Source: a virus
Reading direction: 5' to 3' (one strand)
Virus record (IMG/VR): IMGVR_UViG_3300028883_000121
Coordinates: 1 to 26,935 of that record
DNA: 26,935 nt
The notes under the pieces: model-generated
Database searches by the model: none
Told to the model about the DNA's origin: nothing
The model's input: only the letters and a program-made list of their open reading frames with translations
Made by a program: the position numbers and the translations under genes
Shown here: piece after piece, positions 13,238 to 25,944 of the stretch
How positions within the stretch are numbered: the stretch's first letter is position 1
Layout of the letters: each line of letters begins with the position of its first letter

Positions 13238-13533
13238 TGAAAATAGACCTAACTAAATATAAGCCGTTTAAGGGCTTATTATCTATTGAGGAGTACTCTA
13301 TACTAACTATCATAGATAACTACTGTGAGATAAGCGAAAATGGCTACTATCATCAGCCTGCGTCTTATATAACTAATATAATTGGAGACACTGACCAGTC
13401 TAATCTAAGAAGGGTTAAGGAACTTATAGATAGTGGTTATCTTATTGCACGTAGCAAAAAGGGCTATAAGACAAGAAAGATGCTTAAACCAAGTAGTAAA
13501 TACTTTAAAACTAAAGAGAATGAAAGTGCTTAA
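13237..13533 (+). CDS. Winged-helix DNA-binding protein
   Basis: 98 aa. Residues ~15-80 form a winged-helix unit: GLLSIEEYSILTIIDNYCEI, then an ASYITNIIGDTDQSNLRRVKEL recognition region and a wing GYLIARSKKGYKTRKM. The pattern resembles MarR-like or replication-related small winged-helix proteins. It could regulate the early region or load replication proteins. The C-terminus is Lys-rich. It overlaps the methyltransferase ATG (13520) by 14 bases. Confidence 0.6.
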   Translation: MKIDLTKYKPFKGLLSIEEYSILTIIDNYCEISENGYYHQPASYITNIIGDTDQSNLRRVKELIDSGYLIARSKKGYKTRKMLKPSSKYFKTKENESA

Positions 13534-14140
13534 TTTATACGCTTGTCTAGGTGGTAATAGATTACTGTGGGATAACTGCGAAGTAACAGCGGTAGAACTA
13601 GACCCCGAACTTGCTAGAATGTACCAGGAAAGATTTCCTAATGATAAGGTAGTGGTAGCAGATGCACACCAATATTTGTTAGACCACTACAAAGAGTTTG
13701 ATTTTATATGGTCAAGCCCTCCATGTCCTACGCATAGCAGGGCTAGATTTTGGAATACTAAAGCTGCAAGAGTTTACCCAGACATGAAACTATACCAAGA
13801 AATTATATTACTTAATACTCATTTTAAAGGTAAGTGGGTAGTAGAGAATGTAGTTCCATACTATGAGCCACTAATACAAGCAACAAAAATAGGCAGGCAT
13901 CTATTCTGGAGTAATTTTGTAATACCCGAAATAAAACATAAAGACATAGCTATGGATAAGGCAACTCCAAGCGAATTAATAGAATATCACAAACTAAGTT
14001 GTTTTGACTACAATGGTAAACAGCCTAAGCAAAAGATTCTTAGAAACCTGGTTCACTACAATATTGGCAAACATATATTTGACATAGCAAGGGGTATCTA
14101 CAACCACAATAATAATAAACAAGGTGAATTATTTAGTTAA
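13520..14140 (+). CDS. DNA (cytosine-5) methyltransferase, small phage type
   Basis: 206 aa from ATG 13520; the frame is open further upstream but the first motif begins right after this ATG. Motif I is LYACLGGN with AdoMet-binding context, motif II ends in AVELD. Motif IV is SSPPCPTHSRA with catalytic Cys69. Motif VI is WVVENV (109-111). These are the defining motifs of C5 cytosine methyltransferases. The protein is much shorter than Dcm-type enzymes (>300 aa), leaving little room for a target-recognition domain. No restriction partner is adjacent. It probably protects phage DNA against host restriction; the recognition site cannot be told from sequence. Confidence 0.8.
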   Translation: MKVLNLYACLGGNRLLWDNCEVTAVELDPELARMYQERFPNDKVVVADAHQYLLDHYKEFDFIWSSPPCPTHSRARFWNTKAARVYPDMKLYQEIILLNTHFKGKWVVENVVPYYEPLIQATKIGRHLFWSNFVIPEIKHKDIAMDKATPSELIEYHKLSCFDYNGKQPKQKILRNLVHYNIGKHIFDIARGIYNHNNNKQGELFS

Positions 14141-14286: not shown

Positions 14287-14489
14287 TGCTTAAAATTATG
14301 GCAAGAGTAAAATTTACAGACGGAGAAACCGACTTGGATGTATGGACAAATGAGGGTTTAATATTTATAGACATTCATAATGATAATTATTACCCTAATT
14401 ACATAGGTCTTGACCCTTTAACGGCTGAAAGATTAGTTGTAAGAATAAACGAAGCAATAGAGGAGGTTAAGGATGTCAGGTTGGATTAA
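14286..14489 (+). CDS. Small acidic protein, unknown
   Basis: 67 aa from ATG 14286, or 63 aa from ATG 14298; the frame extends to a TTG at 14244, but that is inside the RNA structure. Sequence MARVKFTDGETDLDVWTNEG, then LDPLTAERLVVRINEAIEEV: a small beta unit followed by a helix. It overlaps the initiator gene by 17 bases. Because it follows the terminator hairpin directly, its expression may depend on read-through. Function unknown. Confidence 0.5.
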   Translation: MLKIMARVKFTDGETDLDVWTNEGLIFIDIHNDNYYPNYIGLDPLTAERLVVRINEAIEEVKDVRLD

Positions 14490-15165
14490 ACTACATAGGA
14501 GCTTATTAGATTGGGAGTGGTATCAGGATGCTAACGCATTGCGCTTATTGATACACCTACTTGTCAGTGTTAACTACGAGGATAAACGGTGGCAAGGTAA
14601 GGTAATTAAAGCAGGTGAATTAGTTACAAGTTATGAGAATCTAGGTGATATTTTAGGTTTAACAAAACAACAAGTTAAAACCGCACTAAAGAAACTAGAG
14701 ACAAGCGGAGAAATAACCCGAGCTAGAACACGTCATTGCCTACATTTACAGTTAGTTAAGTGGAGTGAGTTACAGTCTAAGCAACCCGACGATAACCCGA
14801 GAATAACCCGACAGCAACCCGACGATAACCCGACGATAACACCAACTAAAGAATATAAAGAATATAAAGAAATAAAAGAAGAGAAGAAGAGGGAACTATT
14901 TTTAACTTGGTTAGATTACCGTAAATCAATTAAGAAGGGTATAACTAACCAACAAACTTTAGACAGGTTAATAGAAAAGTTTAACTTGCATACCTTTGAG
15001 CAGATAAAGACGGTTATTGATTACAGTATTGATAATGGTTATCAAGGTCTGTTTTGGGATAAGTGCAAAACTGAACAAACTGACAACGGTTTAAAAAGAA
15101 ATAGTAAGGGCGAACTATACAACCCAAAGACGCACTTTTCTGATGGCAGACTAAAATGTATTTAA
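14473..15165 (+). CDS. DnaD-like replication initiator
   Basis: 230 aa. The N-terminus SGWIKLHRSLLDWEWYQDAN followed by a winged-helix region (GDILGLTKQQVKTALKKLET, then GEITRARTRHCLHLQLV) is the familiar start of phage replisome organiser/DnaD-like proteins. A linker at about residues 101-125 encodes the iterons (SKQPDDNPRITRQQPDDNPT). A charged helical stretch (EYKEYKEIKEEKKRELF) and a C-terminal domain follow, containing GITNQQTLDRLIEKFN and YQGLFWDKCKTEQ, as in DnaD/RepO-type proteins. It probably binds the origin through its winged helix and loads the adjacent primase-helicase. The gene lies 2 bases before the helicase gene. Confidence 0.75.
   Translation: MSGWIKLHRSLLDWEWYQDANALRLLIHLLVSVNYEDKRWQGKVIKAGELVTSYENLGDILGLTKQQVKTALKKLETSGEITRARTRHCLHLQLVKWSELQSKQPDDNPRITRQQPDDNPTITPTKEYKEYKEIKEEKKRELFLTWLDYRKSIKKGITNQQTLDRLIEKFNLHTFEQIKTVIDYSIDNGYQGLFWDKCKTEQTDNGLKRNSKGELYNPKTHFSDGRLKCI
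14783..14833 (+). repeat. Five iterons (AACCCGA) at exact 11-bp spacing
   Basis: AACCCGA occurs at 14783, 14794, 14805, 14816 and 14827, each start 11 bases after the last, so all lie on the same face of the helix. A degenerate sixth unit (AACACC) continues the phase at 14838, and one isolated copy is at 14715. Eleven is not a multiple of three, so the repeat is not explained by a protein repeat. Confidence 0.85.
14783..14896 (+). other. Candidate replication origin
   Basis: The iterons are followed directly by an A-rich segment (14842-14896, with AAAGAATATAAAG units) that could melt easily. Iterons plus a melting region inside the initiator gene, next to the helicase gene, is the layout of the lambda O origin. 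Inference from layout. Confidence 0.65.
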
Positions 15166-15166
15166 G

Positions 15167-16999
15167 ATGGTTAAAATATTTGATTGGGATAAAATAGAAA
15201 CTAAGAATCGTCATAGCGGTACGATGAAAACAACGTGCCCCGAATGTTCTCACACACGTAAGAACAAAAAAGACCCATGCCTTTATGTTAACTTTACAAG
15301 TGGTGTAGCAAAGTGCTTTCATTGTGAGAGCTTATCATTTAGAGATTCGGAGAGCAAGATAGACGAAGTAAAAGAATACACCCTGCCACCACAAACATGG
15401 ACAAACTACACCAACCTATCCGAGAATCTAGTTAAGTGGGTAGAAGATGAACGTAGAATTAAACAGTTTGCCTTAAAAGATTTAGGGATAACAGAAGAGA
15501 AGTACTACCAACCTAAGAAACAAAAGGAAGTTAATAACATAGTGTTTAATTACTTTGAGGGTGATAAGTTAGTAAATAAGAAGTACCGCACAGCAGACAA
15601 GTGCTTTACTCAATCCACAGGCGGTAAACCTATCTTTTACAATATTAATTCAATTATAGGTGAAACAGAATGCTACATAGTTGAGGGTGAATTTGACGTA
15701 CTTGCTTTACATTCTTACGGGATCAAAAACGTAATAAGCGTACCTAATGGGGCGAATGATAATGACGACTACTGGAAGAACTCTGACATCTATTTAAAAG
15801 ACATAGAGAAGTTTATCATAGCAGTTGACAACGACACTAAAGGAAACGAACTAAAGGAACGCATAGCACAGCGTTTAGGACGTTACAGATGCGAGTTTAT
15901 AGAATGGACAAACAAAGATGCTAACGGTGCGTTGATTAGCGGTGAGATTGAGAACGAAATTAAGAATAGGAAACGCTTTCCAGTATCTGGAACATGGCAA
16001 ATAAAAGACATAGAAAGCGATATATTCGACCTTTATCACAATGGACTACCCGAGACAATTAAACCAAAGCACCCTACCTTTGCTAAGTTTAATGAAATGT
16101 ACAGCGTAATGAGGGGCCAATTAACAATAGGTACGGGTATACCCTCACATGGTAAATCGAATTTTACGGAGTGGTATGCTTTAAACCTGGTAAAAGATTA
16201 CAACATGAAGATGTCAATGTTCACACCAGAGCATAGCCCTATGTCATTACACCAAACAACTTTAATACAAAAGGCAATAGGCAGAAACTTTTGGAGTGAT
16301 AGAGGCGGTAAACCACGAATAAATGAAGCAGACATTAACCGTTATGTAAGATGGGCAAATGAACGGATCTACACTACGCTACCAGAAAAAGGAGAAGTAC
16401 CAACATGGGATTGGTTGCTAGACAAATTTAAGGAACAAATGTTTGCCTTTGGTGTGGATATATTTTTGATTGATGCTTTCAACAAAGTACTACTACCGAG
16501 AGGCGTTAATAAGATAGACGCTATTAACGAAGTACTAACTAAATTAACGTCCTTTGCTCAAGTCAATAATGTAGTAGTTTTCTTAATTGCTCACCCTACC
16601 AAGATGAAGAAAGACGATGCAGGGGTGTATAATACTCCGAGCCTTTACGATGTGTCGGGGAGTGCCGATTTTAGAAATCAAACTCATAACGGTTTTGCAA
16701 TCCATAGATATTTTGAGGATGAAAACAATAATGGTTACACAAAATTTATTAACTTGAAAACTAAATTCCAATTTCAAGGCAACATAGGCGCAGAGTCTGC
16801 ATTTAACTATGACGTTGACAATAGCAGATATTACGGCCACGATTGTCCTAGACATGAGATTGATTTAACTTTAGAAGATATAGGCGACACAATCCAACCT
16901 AACTTAGATTTTGAAATAAGCGCAAAAGAAATAATACACCAAAAGAAAATAGATAACGGAGATTATGACATTATTGAGGATGATCAACTCCCTTTTTAA
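15167..16999 (+). CDS. Bifunctional primase-helicase, T7 gp4-like
   Basis: 610 aa. A zinc-binding domain has CPEC (24-27), Cys38 and CFHC (50-53). A TOPRIM primase domain has VEGEFD (172-177) and the metal-binding DND (221-223). The helicase domain has Walker A GIPSHGKS (324-331), Walker B VDIFLIDA (430-437) and the sensor-like VFLIAHPTK (471-479). This order (zinc, TOPRIM, RecA-like DnaB-family helicase) is that of T7 gene 4, which unwinds DNA and makes primers at the fork. The C-terminal ~60 residues are acidic and end DDQLPF, a likely contact for polymerase or SSB. It follows the initiator by 1 base, so both are cotranscribed. Confidence 0.9.
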   Translation: MVKIFDWDKIETKNRHSGTMKTTCPECSHTRKNKKDPCLYVNFTSGVAKCFHCESLSFRDSESKIDEVKEYTLPPQTWTNYTNLSENLVKWVEDERRIKQFALKDLGITEEKYYQPKKQKEVNNIVFNYFEGDKLVNKKYRTADKCFTQSTGGKPIFYNINSIIGETECYIVEGEFDVLALHSYGIKNVISVPNGANDNDDYWKNSDIYLKDIEKFIIAVDNDTKGNELKERIAQRLGRYRCEFIEWTNKDANGALISGEIENEIKNRKRFPVSGTWQIKDIESDIFDLYHNGLPETIKPKHPTFAKFNEMYSVMRGQLTIGTGIPSHGKSNFTEWYALNLVKDYNMKMSMFTPEHSPMSLHQTTLIQKAIGRNFWSDRGGKPRINEADINRYVRWANERIYTTLPEKGEVPTWDWLLDKFKEQMFAFGVDIFLIDAFNKVLLPRGVNKIDAINEVLTKLTSFAQVNNVVVFLIAHPTKMKKDDAGVYNTPSLYDVSGSADFRNQTHNGFAIHRYFEDENNNGYTKFINLKTKFQFQGNIGAESAFNYDVDNSRYYGHDCPRHEIDLTLEDIGDTIQPNLDFEISAKEIIHQKKIDNGDYDIIEDDQLPF

Positions 17000-18826: not shown

Positions 18827-19957
18827 ATGAACACAATTAAAGAGCTAATCAAATCGGCAATGTTAAATAAAAACCTATCTGAAAAGGTAGACTTTATTAA
18901 CGAAATCAGAGAATACATACACGAGTTTTCTCCATTCAAAAACGAACCAGTAGACTTTGTAAAGTGGGTTAAAAATGATAATGTAGTAGCAAACGACTAC
19001 AACCCCAATAAAGTAGCGCCCCCAGAAATGGAACTACTAGAAGTCTCAATAATCAATGACGGTTACACACAGCCTATTGTAACATGGCATAATGACGACA
19101 AGCAAAAGACGGAAGTTATTGACGGCTTCCACCGTAATAGAGTTGGTAAAGAATCTAAAATAGTAAGCCAAAGGGTTAAGGGGTACTTGCCAGTAGTAGA
19201 CATACGCAAAGAACAAAGCGGGAAGAACGATCGTATAGCGTCAACGATCAGGCACAACCGAGCAAGAGGTAAGCACCAAGTTAACGCAATGAGTGAGATA
19301 GTAATTGAGCTTAAAAACAGAAATTGGAGCAACAAAAGAATATCTAAACAATTAGGTATGGACGAGGAAGAAGTGTTAAGGCTTTGCCAAGTGTCTGGAC
19401 TGGAACATTTATTTAATGATAGTGACTTCTCAAACGCTTGGGAATCTTCTGACGTTGTAGACGAGTCTTATGAGGTATTAGACGACAATGTTGAGGACGT
19501 TATGGATTTGTATAAGATACCAAACGAAAGCGATGAAACAAGAATATTCCACACTTACGACAAGTGGGAGTGCCACAAAGCGGGGTTCTATAAATCAACA
19601 CACCCCACCCTATCACACGAAGAATGTAAAGATAAATACATAGAAGTGCTGGGAGATATTAAAGAGTTTAAAAAAGGTCTTGAAATAGTGATCAACGAAT
19701 GGAAGTATAGTTGCGAGCATTATTTAACCAACAAGTCAATGAATAGAATAGCGTGGTTAGGTCAAGCGTCCGTTTGTGCTTTACATAACGTACCCTCAAG
19801 ATATTCCAATGCTTGGTTTGACTTACCAGAGAACAAGCAAGATGAAGCAAACGACTTAGCACTTGATTATTTAAATATATGGCTTAAAAGAAACGGACTT
19901 GAGCCAGTAGAGAAAGACGTAGCGATAGATACTAACAGACAAACAGAACTATACTAA
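18827..19957 (+). CDS. ParB-like (IbrB-like) nuclease-domain protein
   Basis: 376 aa. A ParB/Srx-like N-terminal domain is seen at about residues 50-150: DYNPNKVAPPEMELLEVSII, then IDGFHRNRVGKE (98-109) and TIRHNRARGKH (140-150). A helix-turn-helix follows (WSNKRISKQLGMDEEEVLRL, 167-186). The C-terminal ~170 residues are less conserved, with CEHYLTN and WLGQASVCALHNVPSRYSNAW. IbrB proteins of E. coli prophages have this ParB-like module and are always next to IbrA, a PAPS-reductase-like protein, as here. IbrAB was described as a regulator of immunoglobulin-binding proteins; a role in phages is not known. Expressed from its own promoter. The next gene starts 1 base after its stop. Confidence 0.7.
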   Translation: MNTIKELIKSAMLNKNLSEKVDFINEIREYIHEFSPFKNEPVDFVKWVKNDNVVANDYNPNKVAPPEMELLEVSIINDGYTQPIVTWHNDDKQKTEVIDGFHRNRVGKESKIVSQRVKGYLPVVDIRKEQSGKNDRIASTIRHNRARGKHQVNAMSEIVIELKNRNWSNKRISKQLGMDEEEVLRLCQVSGLEHLFNDSDFSNAWESSDVVDESYEVLDDNVEDVMDLYKIPNESDETRIFHTYDKWECHKAGFYKSTHPTLSHEECKDKYIEVLGDIKEFKKGLEIVINEWKYSCEHYLTNKSMNRIAWLGQASVCALHNVPSRYSNAWFDLPENKQDEANDLALDYLNIWLKRNGLEPVEKDVAIDTNRQTELY

Positions 19958-19958
19958 G

Positions 19959-21224
19959 ATGGCGACAAAGGTTTATTTAAAAAAGAATGTACTCAAAGCG
20001 TCAAAAGAGAGAATAGCGAAAGTATTTGACGAGTTCGATAGGTACTACATTAGTTTTAGTGGCGGTAAGGATAGCACAGTAATGACACACTTGGTTTTAG
20101 ATGAAGCGATGAAGCGAGGTAAAAAGGTCGCTTTATTAATCATAGACTTAGAGGCGCAATACGCCCACACTATTGAACACATAAGAGAAATGGTAGAGAA
20201 GTATAAAGACCACATAGAGCTGCATTGGTTTTGTGGTGAGCTTCTTTTGAGAAACGCAGTAAGCGACTTCCAGCCTAAATGGGTTTGCTGGGATGAAGAT
20301 AATAAAGATATATGGGTGAGGGATAAACCAGAAGAAGCGAGTGATTTATCACAATATGATTTCTACATTCCTAAGATGGAGTTTGAAGAGTTTATGGTGT
20401 TGTTTGGTGAGTGGTACTCTCAAGGCGAATTAACTGCTGGATTTATTGGTATTAGAGCAGACGAAAGCTTACATAGATATAGAGCGATTACAGCCACAAA
20501 GAAAGGCTTAATGCACAACAACTATAAGTGGACAACAAAAGTAGCTAAAAACCTTTATAATGTTTACCCTATTTATGACTGGAGGACAGAAGATATATGG
20601 GTGTTCCACGCTAAGTTTAAAGAGTACTGCCATAATAAGATTTACGACATGATGACAATGGCGGGGGTGAAATTATCAAACCAAAGACTTTGCCAGCCTT
20701 ACGGGGATGATCAAAAGAAGGGGCTATGGCTTTACCACATACTAGAATCGGACACGTGGTATAGACTTTTAAATAGAGTAAGCGGTGTCAATAGCGGGGC
20801 TTTATACATACAAGAGAGAGGAAACATAAACGGGTACAACGACGTAACTAAGCCAGACGGTCATACATGGGAATCATACACCAACTACCTTTTAAAGTCA
20901 CTACCTAAAACAATGCAAGACCACTACAAAGAGAGGTTTAAAAAGTTTATAGTAGGATGGAAGAAACGGGGTTACGATTCAATACCAGACCAAGCTCCAC
21001 ACGATCTAGAAGTTAAGTGCTGGGCTCCGAGCTGGAAACGCATGGCAAGATGTATACTAAGGAATGATTATTATTGCAAGGGGCTAGGACAAACACAACC
21101 TAAATCAGAAGCCTACGAGAAGTTTAAATCTATAAAGGCAAAGCGTAAAGCAGCAGAGGAAATAGTGGATTTATCGCATATCCAAGAAGGGGAAAATATA
21201 ACCATATTTGATTTAGGAGCATGA
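19959..21224 (+). CDS. PAPS-reductase-family protein, IbrA-like (DUF3440-like)
   Basis: 421 aa. PP-loop SFSGGKDST at 32-40 binds the nucleotide. Further family marks are a conserved LIIDLEAQYAHT (about 60-72), a GFIGIRADESLHRYRAI segment and a C-terminal part with YDWRTEDIWVFHAKF and LSNQRLCQPYG. PP-loop proteins activate substrates by adenylation (sulfate assimilation, tRNA thiolation, DndC). IbrA is a member of unknown reaction. The size (about 400 aa) fits IbrA. Cofactor could be PAPS or ATP; no [4Fe-4S] Cys pair of assimilatory PAPS reductase is evident. With the ParB-like gene it forms a conserved pair. Confidence 0.8.
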   Translation: MATKVYLKKNVLKASKERIAKVFDEFDRYYISFSGGKDSTVMTHLVLDEAMKRGKKVALLIIDLEAQYAHTIEHIREMVEKYKDHIELHWFCGELLLRNAVSDFQPKWVCWDEDNKDIWVRDKPEEASDLSQYDFYIPKMEFEEFMVLFGEWYSQGELTAGFIGIRADESLHRYRAITATKKGLMHNNYKWTTKVAKNLYNVYPIYDWRTEDIWVFHAKFKEYCHNKIYDMMTMAGVKLSNQRLCQPYGDDQKKGLWLYHILESDTWYRLLNRVSGVNSGALYIQERGNINGYNDVTKPDGHTWESYTNYLLKSLPKTMQDHYKERFKKFIVGWKKRGYDSIPDQAPHDLEVKCWAPSWKRMARCILRNDYYCKGLGQTQPKSEAYEKFKSIKAKRKAAEEIVDLSHIQEGENITIFDLGA

Positions 21225-22860: not shown

Positions 22861-23320
22861 GTTAACAATAAAGCAAGAGAAGTTTGCACAGCTTTATGTT
22901 GAATTAGGCAGCGCATCAGAGGCATATAGGAGGGCTTATGACAAACCTAATTTAGATCCCTCCCAGTCATCAACTAGGGCTTACGAGTTGTTACAAAATA
23001 GTTACATAGCAAAAAGGGTAGAAGAACTAAGAGAAAGATTGAAAGAGAAACACGACATAAACAAGGATAGGGTTATACAGATGCTTTTGGAGGTCATAAA
23101 TGATGCAGACTGTACGTTTGAATTAGCCAAGATAAAAGAGGCAAGTAAAGACGATAGCAGGAGGTTATATAGAATGGCTCAACTAACAAAGAACAGCGAC
23201 AAGTTAAAAGCGATTGAGACACTAATTAAGATATTAGGTTTTGATAAAGATGACGACAAGCCACAAGAGAAGATACAGATAGAAATTATAAACGGTAAGG
23301 GAGATATTAAGGATGATTAA
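22850..23320 (+). CDS. terS: Terminase small subunit
   Basis: 156 aa from ATG 22850 (a TTG six bases upstream is in frame but unlikely). The N-terminus ASELTIKQEKFAQLYVELG followed by ASEAYRRAYDKPN is the Terminase_2 helix-turn-helix pattern (xLTxKQExFxxxYxxxGxAxxAxxxA), which binds the packaging site. Then comes a helical oligomerisation region (YIAKRVEELRERLKEK) and an acidic C-terminus (DKDDDKPQEKIQIEIINGKG) that would contact the large subunit. The large subunit follows only after 2.7 kb of unrelated genes, which is unusual. Confidence 0.85.
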   Translation: MASELTIKQEKFAQLYVELGSASEAYRRAYDKPNLDPSQSSTRAYELLQNSYIAKRVEELRERLKEKHDINKDRVIQMLLEVINDADCTFELAKIKEASKDDSRRLYRMAQLTKNSDKLKAIETLIKILGFDKDDDKPQEKIQIEIINGKGDIKDD

Positions 23321-24362
23321 AGTATTAGTTATAAACCCACAGTATAGCGGTGTAGATATGTATAGACTTACACCACACCAGTATTTGAATGAGGAAGAGT
23401 TTGAGGTTAACTTTACACCTACATTAGACAATGCACCTAGTAATATTCATGAAGAGTTAAGCGAGTACGATATAGTAGTATTCTCTAGGATGCTATCTAA
23501 GACAAAGGACAAGGATAACACTAAGGATATACTAGAAGCCATTAAGAAGTCTGGTGTAAAGCTCGTAATGGATTATGACGATGCATGGAGATTGCCTAAA
23601 TATCATGGACTGTATAAAGAGTTTGAAAAGGAGGGATTTAGACTAAGACAAATTAAAGCAGCAAAAGCAGCCGATGCGATAACAGTTTCAACGCCTTACC
23701 TAGAGAAGTCTATAAAGCCTTACAATAAGAATGTCCAAGTAGTTAAGAACTGCGTAGACTACAACAGCGTTCAATGGATGAAGCACAAGACTAAGAGTGA
23801 TAAACTAAGAGTAGGATTTATAGGCGCAAAGGACCATGTTAAGGATATGGAGATGATAGCGGATGAGCTTTGCAAGATAGGGGAGTTACCAAACGTGGAA
23901 CTGTACTACGGTGGATGGGCACCTGGTGAAGAGAACAACAAGATAGCGAGTTTTATGTCATGCGCTGGTGCTAGTAATATCTTTGATGTAATACCAGCTT
24001 TAGACGTTAATTGCTACGGTCAGATGTATAACCATATAGATGTTTGTCTGGCACCATTATACAAAGATGAGTTTACACAAAGTAAGAGTGAATTAAAAGC
24101 CTTAGAAGCTGGGTTTATGATGTGTGCTTTAGTAGCAAGTAATCAAGAGCCTTTTACGAATGTATGTAATGAAGATAACAGTATACTGTGTGATGGAGGT
24201 AAGGGATGGTATGAAGCAGTAAAGAGATTAAGTGAAGATAGAGACTTAGTAGCGACATTAGCAAATAGATTAAATAAAGACGTATTAGATAACTACGATA
24301 TATTGAAAGAAGCGAAAGTAAGGGAAGAGTTTTACAAGTCTCTATGTGGGAATGGGGAATAG
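23313..24362 (+). CDS. GT-B type glycosyltransferase (GT4-like)
   Basis: 349 aa. N-terminal Rossmann half: KVLVINPQYSGVDMYRL, then YDIVVFSRM and LVMDYDDAWRLP. C-terminal half: LRVGFIGAKDHVKDMEMIAD, VELYYGGW, a BIDVCLAPL-like HIDVCLAPLYKDEF, and SKSELKALEAGFMMCALVAS, with the Glu-rich motif of GT-B donor binding (ExxE-like). This resembles GT4 retaining enzymes that transfer a sugar from a nucleotide donor. No membrane segment. Target could be phage DNA, virion proteins or host surface sugars. It overlaps terS by 8 bases (ATG 23313) and is in frame with a downstream chain of overlapping small ORFs. Confidence 0.75.
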   Translation: MIKVLVINPQYSGVDMYRLTPHQYLNEEEFEVNFTPTLDNAPSNIHEELSEYDIVVFSRMLSKTKDKDNTKDILEAIKKSGVKLVMDYDDAWRLPKYHGLYKEFEKEGFRLRQIKAAKAADAITVSTPYLEKSIKPYNKNVQVVKNCVDYNSVQWMKHKTKSDKLRVGFIGAKDHVKDMEMIADELCKIGELPNVELYYGGWAPGEENNKIASFMSCAGASNIFDVIPALDVNCYGQMYNHIDVCLAPLYKDEFTQSKSELKALEAGFMMCALVASNQEPFTNVCNEDNSILCDGGKGWYEAVKRLSEDRDLVATLANRLNKDVLDNYDILKEAKVREEFYKSLCGNGE

Positions 24363-24478
24363 CAGTAGAATACTTACCTATCTTATCTTACAATGTAAGT
24401 CACAGTATAGAGGGTGTTCAGTTGTTTATTAAAGGAAATGTAGTTATGTTTGACATAAATAAAATATACTTGAATTAA
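24344..24478 (+). CDS. Tiny ORF (44 aa) after the GT-B gene
   Basis: ATG 24344 lies inside the end of the glycosyltransferase gene; TAA 24476-24478 is one base before the next ATG. Sequence MWEWGIAVEYLPILSYNVSH, then a beta-like VQLFIKGNVVMFDINKIYLN. It is a complete open frame that fills what would otherwise be a gap. Unknown; could be a small accessory or by chance. Confidence 0.4.
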   Translation: MWEWGIAVEYLPILSYNVSHSIEGVQLFIKGNVVMFDINKIYLN

Positions 24479-24479
24479 T

Positions 24480-24656
24480 ATGATTAAAAGTGAAATTATA
24501 GGGCATTTGCCTAAGAAACTAAGTAATTATGCTAGATATACGGCAAACAAACCGACCTTTAAAAGCAAGTCTGCTGCATTAAATTGGAGTAGGATGTTAG
24601 GCATTAGAATAGACAGTACAAGGTCATTATATAAAGATTTAGGATGTCCAAGATAG
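24480..24656 (+). CDS. Small basic protein (58 aa) between the glycosyltransferases
   Basis: ATG 24480 to TAG 24654-24656. Basic sequence IKSEIIGHLPKKLSNYARYT followed by KPTFKSKSAALNWSRMLGIR and RSLYKDLGCPR. It could bind nucleic acid. It overlaps the GT2 gene by 13 bases. A TATACTTG at 24465-24472, preceded by TTG at 24450-24452, is a weak promoter candidate just upstream. Confidence 0.5.
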   Translation: MIKSEIIGHLPKKLSNYARYTANKPTFKSKSAALNWSRMLGIRIDSTRSLYKDLGCPR

Positions 24657-25408
24657 CAGTAATATGTAACACCATGAACGAATACCACAAGGCCAAGATG
24701 GGTCTAGGTGTTACTCTAAGCAATGCGGGTAAAGATTACGATTTGTTTATATGGGATAACGGTAGTAAGAATGATCGTATAAAAGACCTTGTTAAATCTT
24801 TTAAGCCAAAGTTCCTGCACTACTCAGCTGAGAACGTAGGCAACCCAGTAGCTTATAATCAAATGCTATTAAGGGTAAAAGAACAAGGGTATGACTATGT
24901 TGCTATGATTGCACCTGATATTGTACTACCTAATAACTGGCTAGCACTATCTGAAAATATATACACTAGATGTAAGTTAAAAGGGTTCCTGGGTTATGAC
25001 TGGGGGTATAGACAAGAGCGTAACTTAGAGATGATTGAACAAGTACCTTTGCAGCATTCGGATAACGTGTATGGGTGTTGGTTCTTCTCAACTAAACTAC
25101 TAGACAAAGTAGGTTTTATCAATGAGGAGTACAAGATGTATGGACGTTGGGATAGTGATTGGAACTTTAGAATAAACGCTAGTGGATATAAGTCCTACTA
25201 CCTACCACCAATTGAAATGCTAAAAAGCATACATTTAACCTCAAGCTGGAAGGACAATAGCACAGAGTATAGGAAGTTTAAAGACAAGTGGCTAAGACAT
25301 AACACAGAGGTAGAGAAAAAGGAGCTCCTTAAATACGCTAAGACTAATAACTTCTATGTTGCGCCACCTAAAAAGATTAAAGAATTAGAAACTTATACGT
25401 GTCAATAG
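24644..25408 (+). CDS. GT2 family glycosyltransferase
   Basis: 254 aa, GT-A fold. N-terminal KIAVICNTMNEYHKAKM, then LFIWDNGSKNDRI, AENVGNPVAYNQML and DYVAMIAPDIVLPNNW, the last in the position of the metal-binding DxD region of inverting GT2 enzymes. The later MYGRWDSDWNFRINASGY is like the ED-containing catalytic segment (here WDSDWNFR). Size is normal for a minimal domain. No transmembrane helix. Acts presumably with the upstream GT-B enzyme on one substrate. It overlaps the next frame by 10 bases if GTG 25399 is used. Confidence 0.8.
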   Translation: MSKIAVICNTMNEYHKAKMGLGVTLSNAGKDYDLFIWDNGSKNDRIKDLVKSFKPKFLHYSAENVGNPVAYNQMLLRVKEQGYDYVAMIAPDIVLPNNWLALSENIYTRCKLKGFLGYDWGYRQERNLEMIEQVPLQHSDNVYGCWFFSTKLLDKVGFINEEYKMYGRWDSDWNFRINASGYKSYYLPPIEMLKSIHLTSSWKDNSTEYRKFKDKWLRHNTEVEKKELLKYAKTNNFYVAPPKKIKELETYTCQ

Positions 25409-25422
25409 GTAATAAAGAAGAA

Positions 25423-25944
25423 ATGAGAATCTATATAACGGGTTGTGCAAAAACTGGAACAACGCTTCTAAGACGTTTAATGAATGCTTTTGAGGGTCTG
25501 AATGTAGCAGTTGATGAAATGTCTTTAAAAAGGTTTTTAGAGAGTGAATACGATGTGGCAAAAAGAAACGCAAAACAGATATTCAGTATTGGGGTGGATG
25601 AGGATTTCATAGACGAAGCAATTAATCTAATAACTGAAAACGAAGTTAAGATACTTCATATTCATAGAAACAAAGAGGATGTATTAAAGTCCGATAATGG
25701 TTATGTCCCAGAGCAAAGGTATGACGATGTAGAAAATCAAATGGTTAGATACAAAAAACACATTACACATATTGTACATTTTGAAGAGTTAACCCACCAT
25801 CCAGATAAGGTACAAAAAGAAATTGCAGACGCATTGGGTTTAAAGATAAAACACAAATTCAGCGAATACCCAAACTTTATAGATGTTAAATCGGAGAAAA
25901 TAAACAACGGCATTTATGAGCTTAGAAAAATTGAAAAAAAATAA
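25423..25944 (+). CDS. Sulfotransferase-like protein
   Basis: 173 aa from ATG 25423 (GTG 25399 also in frame). The N-terminus MRIYITGCAKTGTTLLRRLM is the PAPS 5'-phosphosulfate-binding loop (xGxxxSGTT in sulfotransferases, here GCAKTGTT). ILHIHRNKEDVLKS holds the 3'-phosphate-binding strand with Arg and Asp/Ser, as in RxxxxxxxS of sulfotransferases, and HIVHFEELTHHPDKVQKEIA matches the FEEL motif after it. It is shorter than cellular enzymes (about 250-300 aa). Substrate unknown; the two neighbouring glycosyltransferases suggest a sugar. Confidence 0.7.
   Translation: MRIYITGCAKTGTTLLRRLMNAFEGLNVAVDEMSLKRFLESEYDVAKRNAKQIFSIGVDEDFIDEAINLITENEVKILHIHRNKEDVLKSDNGYVPEQRYDDVENQMVRYKKHITHIVHFEELTHHPDKVQKEIADALGLKIKHKFSEYPNFIDVKSEKINNGIYELRKIEKK

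Follow-up and report, generated by a model that had tools for sequence, protein, structure and literature searches.

What function do short repeats serve when they lie inside the coding sequence of a viral replication gene? The question is raised by IMG/VR virus record IMGVR_UViG_3300028883_000121, the entire 26,935 bp of which form the window analyzed here, where an array of repeated units (iterons) spaced 11 bp apart is nested in the linker-coding part of a replication initiator gene (14473-15165, + strand). An initial annotation had suggested that the array was a likely replication origin. The evidence below indicates that it is very probably the initiator-binding part of an origin situated within the initiator's own gene, acting by the mechanism that we propose.

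The 11-bp array and its codon phases

The motif AACCCGA occurs exactly at 14783, 14794, 14805, 14816, and 14827, giving five units in 11-bp steps (span 14783-14833), and is followed in phase by a degenerate sixth unit, AACACCA at 14838. The array thus has the form given in the initial annotation, which had also correctly placed it inside the initiator gene and ahead of an A-rich segment. Counted from one base earlier, all on the + strand, the cores are CAACCCGA in iterons 1 (14782-14789) and 4 (14815-14822), TAACCCGA in iterons 2 (14793-14800), 3 (14804-14811), and 5 (14826-14833), and TAACACCA in the degenerate iteron 6 (14837-14844). The pattern AACCCGA-N4-AACCCGA, allowing up to two mismatches, matched the window six times versus 0.03 expected in shuffles. 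An extra single TAACCCGA lies on the + strand at 14714-14721, 68 bp ahead of the first unit (14782), out of helical phase and within the wing-coding part of the gene; beyond this copy and the array, no further TAACCCGA was found in the window. Apart from the array, neither the window nor the other genomes scanned contain a cluster of this kind, and, the stray copy aside, no second origin cluster was found in them. Folding of the DNA at the array was not better than that of shuffles (z 0.5) and gave no indication of a hairpin.

Because 11 is not a multiple of three, successive units fall in different codon phases. The array passes through all three, with the protein sequence recurring only after 33 nt (QPDDNPRITRQ / QPDDNPTITPT). 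We assembled 417 homologous loci, drawn from viral contigs, named phages, and bacterial genomes, of which 221 were non-redundant and 220 analyzable; the recorded hosts include Bacteroidota, Bacillota, Gammaproteobacteria, Fusobacteria, and Gastranaerophilales. For the linker DNA, the best period was 11 in 128 loci, 22 in 16, and 33 in 7. Measured against shuffles that exchange synonymous codons while keeping the protein, the excess per 40 was 7.0 matches at lag 11, 4.8 at lag 22, and at most 2.4 at other lags, and 175 of the 220 loci exceeded these shuffles at p<0.05. The consensus unit of 175 arrays is C-A-A-N-(Y/G)-R-R-C-M-A-N, with the core C 97% conserved, and in many relatives the last unit is reduced to the core alone.

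The choice of bases within the units follows the reading frame in a manner that points to the DNA as the object of selection. In phages with Gln at initiator residue 66, 77 of 86 units in the stop phase have CAAC, and 200 of 254 units in the other two phases have TAAC. T therefore gives way to C where TAA would create an in-frame stop codon, and AAC is kept in all three reading frames. The window follows the same rule, with C in units 1 and 4, both in the stop-codon phase, and T in units 2, 3, 5, and 6. Conservation of AAC in three phases, with the exchange confined to the stop phase, argues that the array is read as DNA and, together with the excess over synonymous shuffles, bears out the earlier proposal that selection acts on DNA rather than protein.

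Covariation of the iterons with the initiator

The 230-residue product of 14473-15165 is modeled by AlphaFold2 as a winged-helix domain (residues 1-104, encoded at 14473-14784, + strand; predicted local distance difference test score, pLDDT, 94-98), a linker that is disordered exactly at the array (pLDDT 45-60), and a helical C-terminal domain. Its profile matches are PHROG 2514 (4e-22, residues 1-140), 186, and 678 (O-like), families of DnaD-like loaders and O-like initiators. The match to PHROG 2514, labeled DnaD-like helicase loader, is significant over the N-terminal domain and linker. The name DnaD-like given to the gene initially thus agrees with the PHROG label, but the protein has no Pfam match to DnaD/DnaB_2 (PF07261), a domain present in a Staphylococcus relative (L026), or to Phage_rep_O (PF04492), which lambda O matches. 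No solved structure in the PDB set was significantly related by sequence. The structural neighbors of the DNA-binding winged helix are RepA_N initiators (4pt7, 4pql, 5kbj) and CRP.

Residue 66 of this domain (Gln here; codon 14668-14670, + strand), which stands at the beginning of the recognition helix (65-78), varies together with core positions 5-7 of the iteron. Gln was found with YAAC in 83 of 83 cases, Met with YAAC in 8 of 8, Arg with YGAC in 24 of 25, and Lys with GGGC in 20 of 24. Residue 54 (Tyr here; codon 14632-14634, + strand), the first residue of helix 2, covaries with positions 9-10, the two bases after the core C, Arg54 being accompanied by CA in 52 of 55. The mutual information excess was 0.93 nats for residue 66 and core positions 6-7 (next-best column, 0.26) and 0.53 for residue 54 and positions 9-10 (next column, 0.25); residues 88-90 were weakly linked to positions 1-2. 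The AlphaFold2 model has residue 66 where the recognition helix starts, residue 54 at the N terminus of helix 2, and residues 88-90 in the wing. Adenine is a classical partner of Gln, and guanine of Arg or Lys. We further propose residue 69 (codon 14677-14679, + strand), which is Lys in the window protein and Arg in 170 of 175 relatives, as the likely partner of the near-invariant core C.

Among disjoint close pairs, with an identity of 50% or more over the rest of the domain, the core differed in 62 of 62 pairs differing at residue 66 and in 4 of 73 sharing it, which argues that shared ancestry is not the explanation of the covariation. In close pairs such as L102/L087, the switch affects all core units at once. 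On a tree that left out the residue and base columns, 28 residue-class changes were matched by 28 base changes. Since the iteron bases covary with residues of the initiator's own winged helix, its N-terminal domain is almost certainly what reads each 11-bp unit. Covariation shows residue 66 as the reader of YRR in the core YRRC and residue 54 as that of the two bases after C, presumably through direct residue-base contacts. With the code frozen beforehand, 38 new non-redundant loci served as an independent check; among close homologs, the core was predicted for 6 of the 7 strong arrays and, once weak arrays were counted too, for 13 of 16. If the code is true, residues 1-104 should bind TAACCCGACGA repeats, the Q66R change should shift preference to TGACCCGA, and Q66R and Q66K should switch preference among TAACCCGACGA, TGACCCGACGA, and GGGCCCGACGA repeats.

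The array as a probable replication origin

Directly after the array lies an A-rich, C-free block (14848-14892, + strand), a candidate unwinding element by its sequence and by the composition of the same region in relatives. It contains AAAGAATAT in two and a half copies (14848-14871), read in two different codon phases. Across 175 phages, a segment of 10-40 nt directly behind the array consists of 55-62% A and 3-7% C, versus approximately 38% A and 15% C further downstream. The locus therefore combines what is expected of an intragenic iteron origin, namely, direct repeats bound by the initiator of the same gene, as judged by covariation, and an adjacent A+T-rich unwinding element, as judged by composition. 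The gene that follows (15167-16999, + strand) encodes a primase-helicase with Toprim and DnaB-like matches, as first annotated, and the neighbors of the initiator gene are replicative. About five initiator protomers would line up next to each other along one face of the DNA, with one turn per unit; the stacked protomers could then strain the adjoining A-rich block open, after which the C-terminal domain of the initiator would recruit the primase-helicase of the next gene.

Two established origins make origin function a strong inference by analogy. At lambda ori and SPP1 oriL, bound initiators open an adjacent A-rich segment and load the helicase. Like the window, lambda has iterons and an A-rich stretch within the initiator gene, between the parts for the N-terminal DNA-binding domain and the C-terminal domain, and lambda O and the window protein both match PHROG 2514, 678, and 345. 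Lambda O also has Lys at the position aligned to residue 66 and iterons with GGG, as the code predicts, an agreement that is suggestive only, the N-domain alignment being weak and not significant. Lambda iterons are, however, 18-bp inverted repeats spaced 20-24 bp and bound by O dimers (PMC7466680), whereas the window has 11-bp units without dyad symmetry and thus lacks the approximately 18-bp iterons with internal inverted symmetry of a lambda O-type origin. The lambda O arrangement initially invoked therefore holds as an analogous layout, not for the iterons. SPP1 gp38/oriL resembles the window in having direct repeats and an A+T-rich unwinding element within the gene of the origin-binding protein and helicase genes downstream (PMC6316719); SPP1 also has oriR, a second origin, whereas the window and the genomes scanned showed no second cluster.

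The winged-helix N-domain is also similar in fold to those of the RepA_N initiators of pTZ2162 and pSK41 and of PLE RepA (4pt7, Z 9.5; 5kbj, a Rep-DNA complex, Z 8.8). RepA_N plasmid initiators bind iterons and replicate by the theta mode (PMC7145576). Fold alone does not show kinship with RepA_N, because CRP domains score equally high against the window N-domain. Listeria phage A118 gp49 (L424, 3609-4541), a DnaD-like loader, also carries an array within its gene, made up of ACAACGA units; unlike that of the window, this array has a period of 12, in frame with the codons, and the N-domain is a distant relative outside the established code. We regard gp49 as a more distant initiator with a parallel solution. 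TP901-1 Rep was considered as an experimentally studied relative and set aside; its N-domain is of another type, and it has no 11-bp array.

Other roles for the array were weighed against this evidence. It is improbable that the array is solely an autoregulatory operator, through which the initiator would block its own transcription or switch early to late without any origin. Covariation would be expected of any site read by the N-terminal domain, but in nearly every relative the sites lie approximately 300 bp inside the gene, after the N-domain coding sequence, which is no promoter position. The A-rich, C-poor block also stands on the same side after the array, and lambda and SPP1 share the layout with origin function (PMC6316719; lambda record). 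An operator role could exist alongside the origin.

Plasmid R1 parC carries 11-bp direct repeats in sets of five, a precedent that, with a ParB-like protein encoded in the window (18827-19957), would fit a partition site (centromere) for that protein. The bases of the iterons nevertheless track winged-helix residues of the initiator (62/62 versus 4/73), so that this proposal is largely contradicted and very unlikely. Hardest of all to credit is that the repeats are a feature of the protein, a flexible linker arising by replication slippage with no role for the DNA. A linker predicted to be disordered (pLDDT 45-60) would tolerate repeats, but the unit is not a multiple of three, the repeats exceed synonymous shuffles, the core persists across three codon phases, changing only where a stop would arise, and the repeats covary with residues of a separate folded domain, which already contradicts such an origin of the linker.

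Several results weigh against the array being the binding part of an origin read through a family-wide code. The expected minimum of cumulative guanine-cytosine (GC) skew was not found at the array; skew is positive along the whole window, its extremes are not at the array in four other genomes, and it follows gene direction. The proposal of a likely origin is supported by analogy and receives no skew signal. As to the 11-bp spacing expected of relatives, it is the commonest best period, but about a dozen of the 220 loci are clearly spaced by 12 bp, and 36 (about 16%) have no array at the threshold used. Since the 12-bp loci inspected by eye (L354, L372, L397) keep the same cores, exact helical phasing appears favored, not required. 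On well-supported (starred) tree branches only four independent pairs remain, few because the domain is short, and all four agree (p = 0.125). The frozen code failed in distant homologs, with 1 of 7 strong arrays right, where residue alignment and unit rotation are uncertain; we therefore claim the code for the close family only. Finally, the window unit, TAACCCG, is atypical past the core, with CCG instead of AAN, and is accompanied by Lys69 instead of Arg; for this reason the window phage is a family member with variant specificity.

Initiators with one and the same N-module have different C-terminal domains, DnaB_2 in L026 and O-like in L117, an observation that suggests a portable cassette for origin recognition. 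We consider it likely that a very widespread phage cassette exists, composed of a winged helix, about five 11-bp iterons, an A-rich opener, and varied C-terminal domains, with the code, set by a single position of the recognition helix, of Gln/Met for AA, Arg for GA, and Lys for GG. The new elements are the 11-bp direct-repeat variant, its breadth, and the amino acid/base code. No description of 11-bp iterons of this family or of the residue code was found in the full texts searched, which covered neither most subscription papers nor any preprints, so that an earlier report is possible. Origins are unmapped in most phages known only from sequence; with initiator, sites, and specificity code in one gene, origin position and specificity would become readable from sequence. 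If the cassette and code are true, origins and replication-specificity groups would be predictable from protein sequence in thousands of phages, offering a route to predicting which phages or satellites could share one another's origins or block them. The protein and the five sites in its own gene would then evolve in concert, and five sites changing with one codon under both coding and binding constraint would be an unusually clean case of protein-DNA coevolution.

Distant relatives and neighboring genes

A distant Bacteroidota subfamily (L488, L489, L491, L487) has short 11-bp arrays (CCGACAACAAC and similar) and Ser at aligned position 66; its residue/base code may be different. One locus (L510, PP511318) lies in a 36-kb tailed-phage genome, with terminase, portal, and tail sheath, whose record assigns it to Microviridae, apparently by a taxonomic mistake.

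A short cytosine-5 DNA methyltransferase-like gene (13433-14140) sits just ahead of the initiator gene; in principle, the origin could be regulated by methylation of the CpG in the CCCGA units. The ParB-like gene (18827-19957) is immediately followed by a DUF3440 phosphoadenosine phosphosulfate (PAPS) reductase-like (PP-loop) gene, and the pair, spanning 18827-21224, resembles IbrB/IbrA and is possibly a DNA-modification or host-takeover pair. Further downstream, 23313-25944 encodes two glycosyltransferase-like proteins and one sulfotransferase-like protein, as judged from the translations only, beside the terminase small-subunit gene.
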